From NCBI GenBank assembly GCA_030606465.1, contig JAUWGL010000048.1, forward strand, positions 1-6,659: DNA of 6,659 bases. Direction: 5' to 3'. This DNA is from Thermoplasmata archaeon (lineage in GTDB: Archaea > Thermoplasmatota > E2 > DHVEG-1). Below are positions 1-6,659 of the stretch, in pieces. Positions within the stretch are counted from its first letter, which is position 1; every line of letters begins with the position of its first letter. Below the pieces are notes generated by a model that worked only from the letters and a program-made list of their open reading frames with translations, was not told the origin of the DNA and searched no databases. The translations under genes and the position numbers were made by a program.

Positions 1-3000
1 ATGCTATTGTTATGTCAAGTTGTGTACCATATTTAAGATGAACATTGCTAAGAGTTAGATCTGCGCTCCCACTACCTTCAATCTTTATAGAATTTTGAAC
101 TGTATCCCATTCAGCATAAAATCTTCCACCAGCCTGGAAACTAATACTACTAGCTGATATTGAAAATGGAGCATATACAAAGTTAAGATTCGTTACTGTA
201 AGAGGAACATTAGCATTTTGAACATTCAATTCAACATTATTATTAGACCAAGTAAGTGTTATTTTACCTGAGTTGCCATGTAAACTGAAATCTCCACTAG
301 CAGTTATTGTTTCACCGTTTATTACAAACTGACAACTTCCAAGACTTATTGACCCGCTAACTTGTAGTTCAAGTTTGTTTTCAGCGACCAATACATAACC
401 ATTTGCATCAAGGTCAAGAGATCCAATTATTTTGATATTGGTAGAACCAGCCTTAACTTCAATGTCTTTGATTTTAAGATATGCACCATTTCCACCATCT
501 ACTTTCAACGCGTTTTGATCCCATGAAACATAGAAATGACCACCCGGAGCAAATTCAATTCTGTCAGCAATTACAATAAATGCGCCAGTGTCATAGTTGA
601 AGCTAAGACCATTAACAGTTAGTTTTCCACCGATTGCAGTTAGTTCAACATATTTTTGAGTGGTATCCCAGTTTAATGCAATTGTTCCAGCTCCACCAAG
701 GTTAAATGCCCCAGATACTGCGATCTCCTTTTGGTTAAAATGAAAAGTACAACCGAGATCAACAGTTCCTGAAACACTCATTTCAAACTTTTGATCTCCA
801 ACTTCTACATGTCCACCGGCATTTAGATCGATTACTCCATCGATTCTCACTTCAACCGTACTGGATTTGAAATAGAAATCTTCAAGGTAGAAGGCTACAT
901 CCCCATTTATCTTCAGTGTATTTCCTGATACAACAGAAACAGTTCCACTTGCTCCCAGATCGAGTTTTGTTAGTTCTAACCTTGGATTATCATTTCCAAT
1001 TGTTAGTACAACTGAACTCATTGAGAAACCACCTGATATCGTCCCAGATGCAGAAAACGTGTCACCAAGGTGGATGTTTACATCACCGCTTCCTTTAAGA
1101 TTTATATTACTTGAGGTAGCTTTTAGGGTTTGGTATTCAAAATAGAAATTATCAATTGTAGTCTGTCCGCTAACACCTAATTTCACAGAGTTTGAAGCAC
1201 CCCAGAAAACATTAATTGTACCTTTGCTAGTTGGTTTAAAGGTTCCTCGTATTATTATTGCCTCTCCATTTATAACAAATGTACATTGACTTGGAATGGT
1301 CACAGTAAGTGTACCCTGCAGTTCAAGATGGGATTTATCAAGGATAAGTTTCCCACCAGCAGAAATATCCAAATGCCCTTGTATTTTAATTGATAGGCTA
1401 CCATAATCAAAGTTTACACTTCCAACACCAAACGTTGTGCTACCTTGTACCTCAAGTGACTCAAGAGTTCCTTTTTTAACGCTGATACTACCGCTGCCTT
1501 CAAGATTTAGTGATCCAATTTGTAGATCTAAGCTTCCTACTCTAAGGTCAAAACTAGTCATTTTTATACTTGCACCTGCATTCACTGAAAAACCTTCGCC
1601 AATGACAATATTTGCAGTAGTTGCTCCTCCTAGTTCAAAAGAACCAGCACTAAGATGCAATCCTTCATAATCAAGTAAGATATCTGTACTTGTCAGTCTG
1701 GCGCTTGCACCAATTCCAACAGTTTTTGATGTTTCATCCCATAGGATCTCAGCATAGCCAGGGCCATAAAGATCTAAAGTGCCTATAGCCATGTTCAGAT
1801 TGTTAAATAATAGGTTGAAATTCTTCATTTTTAGAAATGTTGTAGCACCAAGATTAGCCTCAACTTTGAATCTTGGAGTATCATCCCAACTAATAACAGC
1901 TGATCCTCCACCGGATACTCCAAGACTCAATGATTCAACACCCACCTCTAGGCTTCCATACTTTATAGTTACACCAACGCTTACCTCAACACCAGAGATA
2001 TCATTGTTAACCGTGATGAAACCATTTTCAAAATCACTAAAGTCTATTTCAAGTTCTTCACCCGCCTGTGTAATTGAAAGCTGACCAGATAAATCAACAA
2101 ATAGCTCTTCCTGTGAAATTGAAAATGCAAAGTTAATTCGTGTGTCACTTCTAATAACCTTAAACCATTTCTCTGTTAGATCCCATGATGCAATAACATT
2201 AATATCTTTTTCTGAGTCAACATGAAAGTTTATCACCTGTTCTTCACTCCAACCATAGTAATCAAGAGCGATGTTACCGGTGTCTGTTGTTTTAAGCTGA
2301 ATTTGTCCCCCAATGGAGAGATCCCAGGATAAATCCACTGTATCTGGAAGATCTGTAATGTTTATCTTCCAAGTTGGATTTTTAAGATCATTGCAGATAC
2401 CAATTTCAAGGTTTTCATAAGCCTGAGTTATATCAGCTCTTATGAAACCATCAGACAAACTAGGATCCCATTCTACATCAACACTCTTCGGCAGATTTTT
2501 CAAGTAAAAGTATAGCTTTTCATCACCCTGCGTATCCTCAGATTGGGCAAACAATATAATGTTATCAATCACCTCATCACTCCTAAACGTGATACTACCG
2601 CCACCAGCTGTAAGGGGCGTGGCATCAACATGGAACGCAAAATTCTGAATAGGATCAATAAGCACACCGACACTAGCGCTACCCTGAGCATTCTCCCTAG
2701 TGAAATACAGTTTCACAGCTGACTGACCGGAACCCTGGAATGCAATATCATAAAGCCATAAGCCATCAGCGGTTTTACCTCTACGATGAGTCAATGTTGA
2801 ATCAATAAATGGATCATAATGAAGCGTAATAGTGGATTGAACAACAGGATTATTTACATCAGCAAAATTAGTAAACAATGAAAACTTATTTGCTCCACCA
2901 GAACCTGTAACTGAGGAACCAACCTCAGGATAAAGACCCCAGCTATCTTTCAAACCTCTTAAAAGAAGATATGGTCTAAATAAATGTTTAATACCAAAAT

Positions 3001-5335
3001 CACCAGAAGGTTTTACTTCCCCTGCATCAGAATGATAACCAACACGAACACGTTTCTCATCCAGATCAAGATTAGGTATTTTATCAAGAGACATTTGTAA
3101 ACAAACAGTGAAATCATCAGACTGACCAATAGCGCCACCGGAAAGAATTCTCACACTTGACAGAGTAGTAGTAAAAACAAACCATGGAATAGGGAAATCA
3201 TTAAACTGAGATTTATCAATAGAAAGCTTAAACAGGTTAATACTGCCAACATATACATCATTAGAGCCATCATTGTTAACATCAATACTAACTGGTAAAC
3301 TACCTGCTCTAACAGGTGTGTTCTTCTCAATGTCGTTGTAGTTCGTATATATTGAGACATCAAGATATTCATATAAATCAATAGCAGTAAACACATCTGC
3401 AAGACCACTAAGTATGAAGAAATCATCCATCTCAGTGAAATCTCTACCAATATCTGCATGGAGGATATCCTGACGCTTATTTCCTCGGCTATCCTTAACT
3501 TCTAATACAACCAGATAGACTTTATTAATATCGTAACTATGTGTGACTTGTTGTCCAGTTGCTTTTTCTCCATCGCCAAAGTACCATGTCCAACTTACAA
3601 TCGAAGCACTTGAATCCAAGCTTGTGGATTGCGATCCGTCAAATGTTATTGACTGATATTTATCCCCGCTGTAGTAGCATCTGCCATATGGAACTAGTGT
3701 ATCGCCCGGTTGATCTATGTATACAGGTGCGATATCCATAAGTTTGTTACCAGAGTTATCTTCCACTGTTAATGTGGCATAGTACTCTCCAGATCCAGTG
3801 TAGATATGTGTCGGTGTCTTTCCTGTTCCAGTGCTGCCGTCTCCGAAGTCCCATTGATATGAAACAGCACCTGTACTATCTGAGGCATCAAATTGAACAG
3901 GCACCCCTGCTTTCCCATAATATGGTCTGCCTGCATCAACCTTGAGATCTTTTTTAGTTGGAACAATGGGATCACAATCGAAATCGATTGTTTCTCCTTG
4001 ATTCAAACCTAGATTCGCATTATGAGCAAGTAGATTACTATTGTCAGAGAAGAAAACATTGTAATTGTGATACTTTTCTATTTCTAGGTTGTATGTAGGT
4101 TCACGTTTGTATACTCTTTCAAGAGAGGTAACAGTAATTCCTTCTCCTAGACCTATTTTGTCACCAATTTTTAAATTACCTGCCTCAACCCATCTATCCT
4201 GGATATATAAAAGATGATTAGGAGTAATCCTAAGATCATCATTGATTACAAGATAATATTCTGTCATCTCCTTCAGGGTGTGATGAAATACTTTTATAAC
4301 ACGTGCGTTTTTCCACACCTTTGTTTTTTCATCAAAAGCCTTTACCAGCTCTTCAACTTTTACATCTTCAATGTTTTTATAGCGGCCATCAGACATCATA
4401 ACTCTCGTACCCGCAAGGAAACAACTGTTATCATCATTTTTCACTGTACCGTTACCCGCCTGCTGTTCATCTCCTAAATCGTATGATCCATCAGACTGAC
4501 CATCATCATTTACCTCCTCAAATACTGTCCCATATTGACTTGCAGTACCATCAGTGGTCTGTGAACCATCAGAACTGGAAGAGGTAACAGTTACGGTAAC
4601 GGTAGATGTTGCAGTAGCAGTGGCACCATCATTATCCTTGACTTCTAGTTTAACCATGTAGGTTCCAGCAGCTGAATAGGTATAAGTAGTCGTAGACGTA
4701 GTCAACCAGCTAGAATCATAAATACCATCATTGTTGAAATCCCAACGATAACCAACAATGCCTCCGTCATGATCAAAGCTTCCTGATGCATGAAAAGTAA
4801 TTGGACTATTTTCATATCCCGTATATGGCCCACCAGCATCAGCAGTTGGATGATCAACCTTGGAGGATACTGATATACTTACCGTTCCCCTATCATAGCC
4901 GCTATGACCATCACTAATTTCATAAACAAAACTATCCTGGCCATAATAATTATTTTGCGGAGTATATGTAATTTTTCTGGAGGATATACTAGCAATACCA
5001 TGAGACGGAGAAATAGGAATTTTAACTATTGATAAGCTGTCACCATCATTGTCATAATCATTAGAAAGAACATAAATCGTTTTACTACTATCCTCATTAA
5101 TACTAACACTATCATCCATAGCAACAGGAGCACTATTAGAAGGAGTAATGTCATCGTTAGGAGAAGAACCTGAAGTACCTGAATCACCAGAATCCAAACC
5201 AGTTCCGCTAACTCCAGAACTGGAACCATAACTGACACCGAGAAAAACAGCACTAGCAGTTATACCTACATTAAACACGCTTAATAACAAGCCTACAATT
5301 ACTAAAACTACTATTGTTTTTTTCATATGTTTCAT
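1..5335 (-). CDS. Giant secreted PKD/Hint protein with beta-rich repeats, 3' end outside window
   Basis: One uninterrupted reading frame of 1778 complete codons starts at ATG 5335 and is still open at the left edge; I checked the frame line by line for stops and found none. Order of parts by residue: signal peptide 1-29; cadherin/Big-like domain about 68-157; PKD about 163-251; acidic Ser/Gly/Asp linker 252-304; Hint domain 305-439; PKD about 460-541 and 546-630; unrecognised beta-rich part about 631-935; repeats of about 46 residues from about 936 to the edge. The start at 5335 is preferred over the in-frame ATG at 5326 because GGAGGT lies 8 bases before it. Inferred role: exported surface or secreted adhesin-like protein that processes itself through the Hint domain. 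PKD and cadherin-like folds are known in extracellular archaeal proteins. The C-terminus, and so any membrane anchor or sorting signal, is not visible. No enzyme active site is seen in the visible part other than that of the Hint domain. Confidence 0.93.
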   Translation of the reverse strand, partial: MKHMKKTIVVLVIVGLLLSVFNVGITASAVFLGVSYGSSSGVSGTGLDSGDSGTSGSSPNDDITPSNSAPVAMDDSVSINEDSSKTIYVLSNDYDNDGDSLSIVKIPISPSHGIASISSRKITYTPQNNYYGQDSFVYEISDGHSGYDRGTVSISVSSKVDHPTADAGGPYTGYENSPITFHASGSFDHDGGIVGYRWDFNNDGIYDSSWLTTSTTTYTYSAAGTYMVKLEVKDNDGATATATSTVTVTVTSSSSDGSQTTDGTASQYGTVFEEVNDDGQSDGSYDLGDEQQAGNGTVKNDDNSCFLAGTRVMMSDGRYKNIEDVKVEELVKAFDEKTKVWKNARVIKVFHHTLKEMTEYYLVINDDLRITPNHLLYIQDRWVEAGNLKIGDKIGLGEGITVTSLERVYKREPTYNLEIEKYHNYNVFFSDNSNLLAHNANLGLNQGETIDFDCDPIVPTKKDLKVDAGRPYYGKAGVPVQFDASDSTGAVSYQWDFGDGSTGTGKTPTHIYTGSGEYYATLTVEDNSGNKLMDIAPVYIDQPGDTLVPYGRCYYSGDKYQSITFDGSQSTSLDSSASIVSWTWYFGDGEKATGQQVTHSYDINKVYLVVLEVKDSRGNKRQDILHADIGRDFTEMDDFFILSGLADVFTAIDLYEYLDVSIYTNYNDIEKNTPVRAGSLPVSIDVNNDGSNDVYVGSINLFKLSIDKSQFNDFPIPWFVFTTTLSSVRILSGGAIGQSDDFTVCLQMSLDKIPNLDLDEKRVRVGYHSDAGEVKPSGDFGIKHLFRPYLLLRGLKDSWGLYPEVGSSVTGSGGANKFSLFTNFADVNNPVVQSTITLHYDPFIDSTLTHRRGKTADGLWLYDIAFQGSGQSAVKLYFTRENAQGSASVGVLIDPIQNFAFHVDATPLTAGGGSITFRSDEVIDNIILFAQSEDTQGDEKLYFYLKNLPKSVDVEWDPSLSDGFIRADITQAYENLEIGICNDLKNPTWKINITDLPDTVDLSWDLSIGGQIQLKTTDTGNIALDYYGWSEEQVINFHVDSEKDINVIASWDLTEKWFKVIRSDTRINFAFSISQEELFVDLSGQLSITQAGEELEIDFSDFENGFITVNNDISGVEVSVGVTIKYGSLEVGVESLSLGVSGGGSAVISWDDTPRFKVEANLGATTFLKMKNFNLLFNNLNMAIGTLDLYGPGYAEILWDETSKTVGIGASARLTSTDILLDYEGLHLSAGSFELGGATTANIVIGEGFSVNAGASIKMTSFDLRVGSLDLQIGSLNLEGSGSISVKKGTLESLEVQGSTTFGVGSVNFDYGSLSIKIQGHLDISAGGKLILDKSHLELQGTLTVTIPSQCTFVINGEAIIIRGTFKPTSKGTINVFWGASNSVKLGVSGQTTIDNFYFEYQTLKATSSNINLKGSGDVNIHLGDTFSASGTISGGFSMSSVVLTIGNDNPRLELTKLDLGASGTVSVVSGNTLKINGDVAFYLEDFYFKSSTVEVRIDGVIDLNAGGHVEVGDQKFEMSVSGTVDLGCTFHFNQKEIAVSGAFNLGGAGTIALNWDTTQKYVELTAIGGKLTVNGLSFNYDTGAFIVIADRIEFAPGGHFYVSWDQNALKVDGGNGAYLKIKDIEVKAGSTNIKIIGSLDLDANGYVLVAENKLELQVSGSISLGSCQFVINGETITASGDFSLHGNSGKITLTWSNNNVELNVQNANVPLTVTNLNFVYAPFSISASSISFQAGGRFYAEWDTVQNSIKIEGSGSADLTLSNVHLKYGTQLDITIA
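2..2530 (-). repeat. Degenerate ~46-residue beta-strand repeats in the giant protein, about 18 copies
   Basis: From about residue 936 to the left edge the protein is a chain of units of 42-51 residues. A typical unit reads: strand, GSLxL or GxLDL, a Gly-rich turn (GGG, GSG, GAG), a strand ending in Trp (often Trp-Asp), a short turn, then two more strands ending in a YG or NG turn. The marker Trp is seen at residues 956, 1004, 1051, 1150, 1199, 1378, 1556, 1605, 1696 and 1743. All gaps fit one to four units with a mean near 46. The composition is Gly/Ser/Thr/Asn with alternating Ile/Val/Leu, and there are no membrane segments. Copies are well diverged at DNA level. A long beta-solenoid or other elongated beta fold is inferred, not proven. 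Confidence 0.8.
446..862 (-). repeat. Higher-order repeat B (about 139 residues) with conserved Cys
   Basis: Residues about 1492-1630 form a block of three basic units. The block aligns with the next one (residues about 1631-1770, bases 26-445) from the opening STVEVRIDG versus STNIKIIG onward. It also aligns with an earlier longer block (about 1313-1491, bases 863-1399, four units) that opens SLSIKIQG. Each block carries a Cys about 37 residues in, in the context C-T/Q-F-V/H-I/F-N (Cys1351, Cys1529, Cys1668). A further copy begins at TQLDITI right at the window edge. Confidence 0.65.
2531..3445 (-). other. Unrecognised beta-rich region with a calcium-loop-like motif
   Basis: Residues about 631-935 match no family I can name. 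The region starts MDDFFILSGLADVFTAI. At residues 685-693 it carries DVNNDGSND, the D-x-N-x-D-G-x-x-D spacing of EF-hand or dockerin-like calcium loops. Alternating hydrophobic stretches such as PIPWFVFTTTL and VKLYFTREN indicate beta strands. Its end grades into the Trp-Asp repeats. It may be a globular head or the ordered cap of the repeat fibre. Confidence 0.55.
3446..3958 (-). other. PKD domains 2 and 3
   Basis: PKD2 (residues about 460-541) has VDAGRPYYGKAG, then VSYQWDFGDGSTGTGK and YTGSGEYYATLTVEDNSGN. PKD3 (about 546-630) has TLVPYGRCYYSGD, then SWTWYFGDGEKATGQ and VYLVVLEVKDSRGN. Both carry the WxFGDG core and the V-x-D-x-x-G-N turn. They directly follow the Hint domain, with only about 20 residues between Asn439 and the start of PKD2. 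They would therefore form the new N-terminal portion after any cleavage at the Hint C-terminus. Confidence 0.9.
4019..4423 (-). other. Hint (intein-like) autoprocessing domain, residues 305-439
   Basis: The domain starts at Cys305 (CFLAGTRVMMSDG, then KNIEDVKVEE), has the block-B motif TPNH at residues 371-374, a block-F like segment YNLEIEKYHNYNV from residue 415, and ends LLAHN with His438-Asn439. At 135 residues it has no room for a homing endonuclease. Known chemistry of the Hint fold: Cys1 makes an N-S acyl shift helped by the TxxH His, and the terminal Asn cyclises. The residue after Asn439 is Ala, so the normal +1 Cys/Ser/Thr nucleophile is missing. This matches the bacterial intein-like (A-type BIL) pattern, where cleavage at either end or alternative splicing is expected. 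It lies between PKD1 and PKD2 in an exported protein. Cleavage would separate the N-terminal 304 residues from the large C-terminal part. Confidence 0.93.
4583..4849 (-). other. PKD domain 1
   Basis: Residues about 163-251 show PTADAGGPYTG at the start, then SFDHDGGIVGYRWDFNNDG and YTYSAAGTYMVKLEVKDNDG. These match the PKD beta-sandwich consensus (GGPY, WDFxxDG, YxxAGxYxVxLxVxDxxG). The domain ends in a Thr/Val-rich strand running into an acidic Ser/Gly linker that leads to the Hint domain. Confidence 0.92.
4865..5134 (-). other. Cadherin-like / Big_9-type Ig-like domain
   Basis: Residues about 68-157 begin with APVAMDDSVSINEDS and contain the signatures VLSNDYDNDGDSLSI, TYTPQNNYYGQDSFVYEISD and a closing GTVSISV. 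This is the standard pattern of the tandem cadherin-like domains (PF17963-type) found in large secreted bacterial and archaeal adhesins. The Asp-rich DYDNDGD loop is the usual calcium-associated position. Here it sits just after the signal peptide as a single copy. Confidence 0.8.
5249..5335 (-). other. Sec signal peptide of the giant protein
   Basis: Residues 1-29 have a classic layout: a positive start (MKHMKK), a hydrophobic core of about 15 residues rich in Val, Leu and Ile, and an A-S-A cleavage motif ending at residue 29. The chain then becomes Ser/Gly/Asp-rich. This indicates export through the Sec pathway, with the rest of the visible chain outside the cytoplasm. Confidence 0.85.
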
Positions 5336-5450: not shown

Positions 5451-5687
5451 CTACATAAGATAAACACCAACCAAGAATAAACCGGTTGGTACTATGATAT
5501 GTTCTTTATAATCCTCAATCTGTTCCTCAATCTGCTCATATGTTTCCTGAGTTTTATCCGTTGATGCTTTCACCCCCGAGTATACTGAAATAATTGCAGC
5601 AATAGAAACCCCTAGTAAAATAACAACTAACAATGTTCTAGTTTTTTTACGCCAAACGTTTCTAAAAGCTCTGCTTATTAATCCCAT
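5451..5687 (-). pseudogene. Truncated MacB/FtsX-type ABC transporter permease, N-terminal stub
   Basis: The 78-residue product begins MGLISRAFRNVWRKKTRTLL, the typical start of MacB/FtsX-type permeases: a short basic amphipathic helix, then one membrane segment at about residues 19-37 (LVVILLGVSIAAIISVYSG). The segment after it, KASTDKTQETYEQIEEQIED, is the start of the usual periplasmic/extracellular coiled region. After about residue 61 the sequence (EHIIVPTGLFLVGVYLM) no longer looks like the family and ends in TAG. Full-length members have several hundred residues and three more membrane segments; none is present here. AGGAAC lies 7 bases before the ATG, so the stub may still be translated. 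No ATPase partner gene is in the window. Most likely a gene remnant; a short retained membrane peptide is the alternative. Confidence 0.7.
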
Positions 5688-6338: not shown

Positions 6339-6659
6339 TCATTTATTACATGGTTTTAGGCTTCCACTTTTGATGGCCCATTTATACATCTTTTCGTTAT
6401 GATCACCAATAAAAACTACTTCACCTATCCTATGTTTTTTTCTATTATTCCATTCAGTAAAAGATTTTTTTACGACATACTTTTTAAGACCTGACTTTGA
6501 GAGATATGCCAAGTTTTTCCCTGTTATATCTTTTAATTCTTTTTGACGTTGAAGTCTAAACATGGAGTAATTACTATTGTACATTTTAATCTTGCTATTA
6601 ATCATTAAATATATATTATCCGTTACATCATCCAGGAAATTCCGGTCATGTGATACTAC
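6339..6659 (-). CDS. ABC-F family ATPase, C-terminal end (start outside window)
   Basis: The frame is open from the right edge to TGA at 6341-6339, giving 106 residues. It begins VVSHDRNFLDDVTDNIYLM, the Walker-B-distal H-loop segment of ABC-F proteins (Uup/EttA type), where the His contacts the ATP gamma phosphate. NSNYSMFRLQRQKELKDI follows, the usual G/SNYSxF strand and start of a basic helix. ABC-F proteins are soluble twin-ATPase proteins that act at the ribosome, without membrane segments. After about residue 50 comes a basic tail (LKKYVVKKSFTEWNNRKKH, ending IKSGSLKPCNK) that I do not recognise. The ATG at 6605 is internal, not the true start. Being last in the chain, this is probably the second ATPase domain; a single-domain or broken protein cannot be excluded. 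Confidence 0.82.
   Translation of the reverse strand, partial: VVSHDRNFLDDVTDNIYLMINSKIKMYNSNYSMFRLQRQKELKDITGKNLAYLSKSGLKKYVVKKSFTEWNNRKKHRIGEVVFIGDHNEKMYKWAIKSGSLKPCNK

Follow-up and report, generated by a model that had tools for sequence, protein, structure and literature searches.

A predicted A-type intein-like Hint domain in a probably archaeal PKD and fibre protein, with relatives in tandem arrays

Introduction

Bacterial intein-like (BIL) domains of type A end in His-Asn, and excerpts from PMC4031507 describe splicing by such domains as possible and cleavage as dominant, with ligation occurring through attack of the freed amino group on the thioester. Mostly cleaved products from A-type BILs are reported in parts of PMC4031507 and PMC7664689, and a passage of PMC7765530 presents these domains as unable to ligate. 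BILs are located in variable regions of bacterial proteins, according to a portion of PMC5874633, and the BIL2 domain, which is accompanied by a ubiquitin-like domain, makes isopeptide bonds (PMC8616854, section 2.4). The subject of this work is a Hint domain encoded on contig JAUWGL010000048.1, all 6,659 nucleotides of which constitute the stretch analysed here (the window), within a long open reading frame (ORF) for a protein of PKD domains and fibre-like repeats. Its class, its insertion site, its relatives, and the reaction that it may perform are considered in turn.

Identity of the Hint domain

The preliminary description of the window, made from the letters alone, had recognised a complete Hint domain in Cys305, the TPNH motif at residues 371-374 and His438-Asn439, followed by Ala440 and flanked by PKD domains. 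All of these residues are present in the sequence, and each of blocks A, B, F and G can be recognised. The domain satisfies the Pfam PT-HINT model, and a Pfam scan places PKD domains on both sides, at residues 177-248 (PKD1) and 467-531 (PKD2). The isolated domain reaches 25.6 bits against NCBIfam intein_Nterm (cut-off 24.5; 20.2 bits when the whole protein is scanned) and 14.5 bits against intein_Cterm, slightly below the cut-off of 15.6. AlphaFold2 gives a confident HINT fold, with a predicted local distance difference test score (pLDDT) of 93, and the BIL chains 2lwy and 6y75/6tmm are its top structural matches by Foldseek E-value as well as by Z, where DnaB mini-inteins are tied with them. 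The domain and its immediate flanks are as follows, in window coordinates on the minus strand:

4424..4585 (-), N-side linker, acidic and of low complexity, about residues 251-304, ending in NDDNS (sequence and ortholog alignment)
4019..4423 (-), Hint (A-type BIL) domain, Cys305-Asn439 (profile, alignment and fold evidence)
4421..4423 (-), Cys305, the nucleophile predicted to form the thioester, found in each of the 30 rows of alignment A1
4214..4225 (-), TPNH motif (block B), residues 371-374, with Thr and His invariant in the same 30 rows
4019..4024 (-), His438-Asn439 (block G), predicted site of Asn cyclisation (sequence and alignment A1)
4016..4018 (-), Ala440, the +1 residue, whose side chain has no nucleophile (sequence)
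3938..4015 (-), C-side linker, about residues 441-466 (sequence and ortholog alignment)

Assignment to the A-type intein-like domains, proposed earlier from the Ala at +1, was borne out by every sequence feature tested: the HINT fold with Cys1 and TxxH, the His-Asn C-terminal end, a +1 position that varies and need not be a nucleophile, and insertion where the host protein is not conserved, given that the domain lies in a low-complexity linker and is missing in the ortholog P0077. As judged from its sequence, the window Hint is thus an A-type intein-like (BIL) domain, and probably a new, archaeal member of a kind of domain that is already known.

Four other classes were considered and rejected. 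Canonical inteins carry Cys, Ser or Thr at +1, and Ala440 rules out a canonical class 1 intein. The Hog domain of hedgehog has a sterol-recognition region behind its Hint and no terminal Asn, and is ruled out by Asn439 and by the PKD domains that follow here. A polymorphic-toxin PT-HINT does not fit an arrangement in which PKD and fibre follow directly, and in which the listed Pfam matches, from an ORF cut at the contig end, name no toxin family; as had been pointed out, an N-terminally placed Hint with more than 1300 residues behind it is no classic pre-toxin arrangement, and 1339 residues of PKD and fibre do follow within the truncated ORF. A BUBL-type BIL would have ubiquitin-like flanks, in place of which the Pfam scan gives cadherin-like and PKD domains.

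The suggestion that the host is probably archaeal also holds, since the nine best Hint matches in contigs of named genomes, a set from which records of the window's own genome may be absent, all belong to Thermoplasmata, Thermoplasmatota or Thermoplasmatales. Thermoplasmatota is the probable affiliation of the host, the word archaeal being applied to it because of this kinship.

The insertion site in a Hint-less ortholog

At least 14 proteins match window residues 600-1080 (7989 candidates scored). The Hint profile was run on 24 sequences, comprising the window protein, those 14 proteins and the longest ORF of each of nine loci (some proteins being present twice, and L152, a different PKD protein of the window's genome, being included), and found a match in the window only. 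P0077, 72% identical over window residues 456-1778, has no Hint, and its N-terminal end aligns with the signal region and PKD1 of the window protein. Once residues 305-439 are left out, the anchors at the end of PKD1 and the start of PKD2 lie 101 residues apart, as compared with 97 in P0077. Among the 102 possible excisions of 135 residues, removal from 305 onward comes second, with a score of 94 against 95 for the best, at 304, and the best excision of free length runs from 303 or 304 to 442 (score 103); the edges of the insertion are therefore those of the Hint itself, within about 3 residues. The absence of the Hint from P0077 and the restored spacing favour splicing, although the A-type BILs characterised so far mainly cleave.

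P0077 is also devoid of the cadherin-like domain of the window protein, and domain shuffling at this place is therefore broader than the Hint. P0079 has several N-terminal PKD domains, and the site comparison was made with P0077 only. An empty site shared by orthologs of several genera was not found, P0078, P0087 and P0088 having no room for PKD1 because their matches begin at their residues 32-60, corresponding to 458-467 of the window protein; for the rest of the orthologs the comparison covered motif positions.

PKD domains interrupted in two relatives

The Hints of P0015 and P0028 each split the final PKD domain of their protein. When the flanks are joined at Cys1 and Asn, PF22352 is recovered with 30.3 bits in P0015, where 73 residues fall on 73 profile positions, and with 45.5 bits in P0028 (cut-off 27); PF18911 gives 30.0 and 32.4 bits (cut-off 27), and PF00801 gives 23.9 and 28.4 bits (cut-off 23.5). 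The separate halves, scanned for P0015 only, score no higher than 16.8 and 20.5 bits, below every PKD cut-off. The P0015 Hint, with 59% identity, is the most identical relative of the window Hint in the sets compared and shares its Ala at +1, while that of P0028 has Asp; the two adjoin in the tree (93/79). A Hint with Ala at +1 that breaks a PKD domain, as in P0015, makes little sense without a subsequent rejoining of that domain, and the recovery of a PKD match on exact excision in both relatives favours splicing.

Conservation of the catalytic residues

Residue usage was surveyed in the protein-search matches, leaving aside the bacterial-looking P0054-P0075, together with the ORFs of archaeal loci, the archaeal origin of most being assumed. 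The 127 distinct full-profile Hints were reduced to 111 at less than 80% identity. Cys1 and the C-terminal Asn are found in 111 of 111, a set whose filter favours both; the residue before the Asn is His in 108 Hints and Ser in the other 3. In the alignment of these Hints the block-B His is likewise universal (111/111) and Thr or Ser nearly so (109/111). The +1 position is occupied by A (34), K (21), T (14), D (10), S (9), P (6), G (4) and others. Retention of the catalytic residues while +1 drifts is the pattern of the A-type BIL family, as read from the alignment.

Looser filtering gives 150 distinct Hints, of which 130 have HN or SN at the end. The other 20 include a piece that by eye resembles a gyrase intein, and a group that ends in FLV before RSDVE (FLV|RSDVE) or similarly and resembles B-type BILs in its missing Asn; such endings, without His-Asn, mark a B-type-like subgroup in P0042, P0045-P0047, P0051, L031 and L045. 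A diverged, Hint-like stretch covering the first part of the profile only (for instance from residue 2223 in P0001) stands in the middle of P0001-P0006, among normal copies. Matches occur in 43 of 292 genomes of the phylum, a figure that includes partial matches and apparent true inteins and is not a count of BILs.

Tandem Hint arrays

The arrays found in relatives, rather than the window domain, are the surprising part of these data and lie further from what is known. On contig C62 of genome G038, of the same order as the window, the 2927-residue ORF L165 contains nine consecutive Hints separated by 1-5 residues (TCSE, TGV, TGCT, TCAIE, TC, T, SK, TC). Cys1, the block-B His and His-Asn are kept in 9/9 of them, and the block-B Thr or Ser in 8/9. 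P0008 (Thermoplasmatales) matches this array in order, with seven units at 76-96% identity, one additional unit in between and a sequence cut within its ninth unit; its spacers (TCTE, TGV, TGCT, TCVIE, TC, T, AK) are identical in 18 of 21 residues, and its Pfam list includes a subtilase family. The array of P0010 (Thermoplasmatales) has seven full units, whose best matches in the first array are at 52-87%, and of its six inter-Hint spacers (TL, TC, SC, TLIC, T, DK) a single one, TC, is the same as its counterpart. Spacers are thus conserved between the G038 and P0008 arrays, not generally, and P0014 has KGG, KGA, KGG, K, KC and RS. Further arrays occur in P0050, P0012 and P0016.

The window's own genome encodes L034 (G000:C6, 2-1990, minus strand), in which three Hints with spacers of 7 and 6 residues sit behind a signal-like N-terminus, and L033 (G000:C19, 1-3315, plus strand), with two Hints at the C-terminal end of a Cys-rich protein. 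In a Hint tree built on few columns, with many of its forks left open, the window Hint does not group with the other Hints of its genome; it belongs to a group of 27 rows (94/85, which does not reach the star mark) that come mostly from multi-Hint proteins, among them P0001, P0002, P0004-P0007, P0009, P0011, L024 and L035. A search of open-licence PMC papers, subscription papers lying outside it, gave no description of archaeal A-type BILs or tandem Hint arrays, which is not proof of absence.

Single-Hint relatives

The window protein is one of 24 single-Hint proteins, in 18 of which the Hint lies at residues 100-200, directly behind an N-terminus that is pilin-like by eye. These 18 lie between P0017 and P0048 and carry PKD, fn3 or cadherin-like parts after the Hint. 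Some match DUF7289 below its cut-off; when the flanks were joined in four pilin-like relatives, out of seven prepared, the matches, all below the cut-off, did not run across the junction, and there is therefore no sign of a DUF7289 domain interrupted by the Hint in those four. Apart from P0057, P0054-P0065 are Hint relatives in proteins of the MG2/alpha-2-macroglobulin type, several with MG2-type Pfam families, whose Hints end in VHN followed by a KG-containing stretch; P0056 is named Patescibacteria.

Predicted reaction and alternatives

With a probability of about 0.5, the window Hint excises itself and joins the head of the protein to the fibre by direct aminolysis, without a +1 nucleophile. 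Each chemical step, like the balance between joining and cutting, is a prediction. Cys305 would turn the Ser304-Cys305 bond into a thioester, assisted by Thr371 and His374; Asn439 would cyclise with the help of His438 and free the amino end of Ala440; and this amine would attack the thioester directly, linking residues 1-304 to 440 onward and releasing the 135-residue Hint. Should the amine fail to reach the thioester, hydrolysis would yield two separate pieces. Excision with aminolysis is preferred because removal of the Hint restores a continuous host protein in the window and a PKD domain in the most identical relative.

A number of points weigh against joining. The window Hint lies in a low-complexity linker, where cutting breaks no domain, and the A-type BILs treated in the excerpts from PMC4031507 and PMC7664689 give mainly cleaved products. 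L046, L054 and P0035 have 1, 2 and 4 residues behind the Hint (the end of P0035 perhaps not being a stop codon), which leaves nothing to splice to, and the C-terminal Asn is missing in 20 of the 150 relatives passing the looser filter. The site comparison involves one ortholog, P0077, whose linker shows low identity in the alignment, and of 5202 free-length excisions 39 outscore 305-439. The interruptions in P0015 and P0028 may be a single insertion event, since their Hints are tree neighbours, and an AlphaFold2 model of the PKD/Hint region of P0015 is uninformative (block-mean pLDDT 34-58 in the PKD halves). Cleavage only, in which a cut at one or both ends of the Hint would shed the cadherin-PKD1 head (about residues 30-304), is a possibility to be taken seriously, because tested A-type BILs are reported mostly to cleave and because the Hint of some relatives is followed by next to nothing. 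It would suit Ala at +1, the behaviour of A-type BILs just cited, the linkers on both sides, the Hints at the extreme C-terminal end in the three relatives above, and the 18 of 24 single-Hint proteins, where a cut behind the pilin-like N-terminus would free the ectodomain; it leaves unexplained, however, the PKD restoration by excision in P0015 and P0028.

The Ser304 thioester could instead be passed to an amine or other nucleophile outside the chain, such as a lysine of a cell-surface partner, to which the head would then be covalently attached. This conjugation, as in Tetrahymena BIL2, finds a precedent in a domain that is among the nearest folds and makes isopeptide bonds (section 2.4 of PMC8616854), but it is improbable for a head composed of PKD and cadherin-like domains, with no ubiquitin-like domain in the Pfam scan and no acceptor known. 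Insertion in a variable linker would also suit a dead structural module, which is very unlikely given the catalytic residues kept in the window Hint and, at the C-terminal end, in 130 of 150 relatives. Release of a C-terminal toxin by a pre-toxin Hint, the role for which the Pfam family is named, is scarcely conceivable with 1339 residues of PKD and fibre behind the domain and, for a protein whose C-terminal end is cut off, a list of Pfam matches that includes no toxin family. Among the three outcomes put forward in the preliminary description, splicing has gained the best comparative support, from P0077 and from PKD restoration in two relatives; head shedding persists as a strong rival that fits A-type BIL chemistry as given in excerpts from PMC4031507; and hedgehog-like thioester transfer retains the BIL2 precedent only (PMC8616854, in part). 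The tandem arrays of relatives and of the window's genome, and the lack of the Hint in an ortholog that retains its surroundings, lay beyond what the letters of the window could show.

Layout of the host protein and its surroundings

The remaining features of the ORF, whose product is predicted to be exported, are these, again on the minus strand:

2..5335 (-), the ORF itself, with at least 1778 residues and an open C-terminal end, because the contig, identical with the window, ends there
5249..5335 (-), signal-peptide-like N-terminal stretch, residues 1-29, judged by eye from the sequence
4874..5137 (-), cadherin-like/Big_9 domain, residues 67-154 (Pfam scan), without counterpart in P0077
4592..4807 (-), PKD domain 1, residues 177-248, a PF22352 stretch (Pfam scan)
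3743..3937 (-), PKD domain 2, residues 467-531 (Pfam scan)
3446..3694 (-), PKD domain 3, with edges set by eye at about residues 548-630 (three PKD stretches in the Pfam scan)
2..2098 (-), repetitive fibre-like region, residues 1080-1778 onward (sequence and matches of relatives)

The GC content of the Hint is 0.35, as against 0.39 in its surroundings, a small difference in base composition. Residues 1-300 retrieve mostly cadherin-like and PKD proteins (120 of 347 matches listed), and the Pfam lists of those 120 contain no Hint except Hint_2 in P0113, P0120 and P0150. Elsewhere in the window, positions 6339-6659 (-) encode part of an ABC-F-type ATPase that is truncated where the contig ends (38.5 bits to the ABC-F model against a cut-off of 380, with partial coverage of the model), and positions 5451-5687 (-) a 78-residue ORF that by eye resembles a truncated ABC-permease N-terminus, with no family above its cut-off.

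Implications

These observations extend A-type BILs, mainly bacterial so far, to surface-type proteins of probable archaea, and provide natural material for deciding whether splicing in the absence of a +1 nucleophile has biological reality or is only a side reaction. A wider and rather doubtful proposal is that Thermoplasmatota edit their own surface proteome, with A-type intein-like domains excising from pilin-like, PKD and fibre proteins, rows of nine Hints firing successively and stitching together or releasing peptides made from 1-5-residue exteins, and the window Hint, splicing with Ala at +1, being the simplest unit. Arrays of up to nine Hints with 1-5-residue spacers could supply compact, nucleophile-free ligation domains.

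Comparison with known systems

The closest described counterpart is the A-type BIL, such as that of Clostridium thermocellum (2lwy, the leading fold match), with which the window Hint has in common Cys1, TxxH, the His-Asn end, the lack of a +1 nucleophile, a place in a variable host region, and a length of 135 residues, as compared with 130-140. Unlike the bacterial A-type BILs, it resides in a probably archaeal PKD and fibre protein and has kin in tandem arrays. Tetrahymena BIL2, from the BUBL1 polyubiquitin locus (6y75, 6tmm), has the BIL fold and an equal Z, but is associated with ubiquitin-like neighbours and isopeptide formation (PMC8616854, in part), and the window Hint has no such neighbours. 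Class 1 inteins resemble it in fold, with DnaB mini-inteins tied in Z, in blocks A, B, F and G, and in an excision edge that fits the Hint-less ortholog within about 3 residues; they have Cys, Ser or Thr at +1, whereas the window Hint has Ala there and occupies a variable linker in a protein of surface type. The bacterial polymorphic-toxin PT-HINT shares its Pfam family with the window Hint, which lies near the N-terminal end with no toxin domain seen behind it, and the hedgehog Hog domain differs from it in that the window Hint possesses a C-terminal Asn and is followed by PKD domains instead of a sterol-recognition region.

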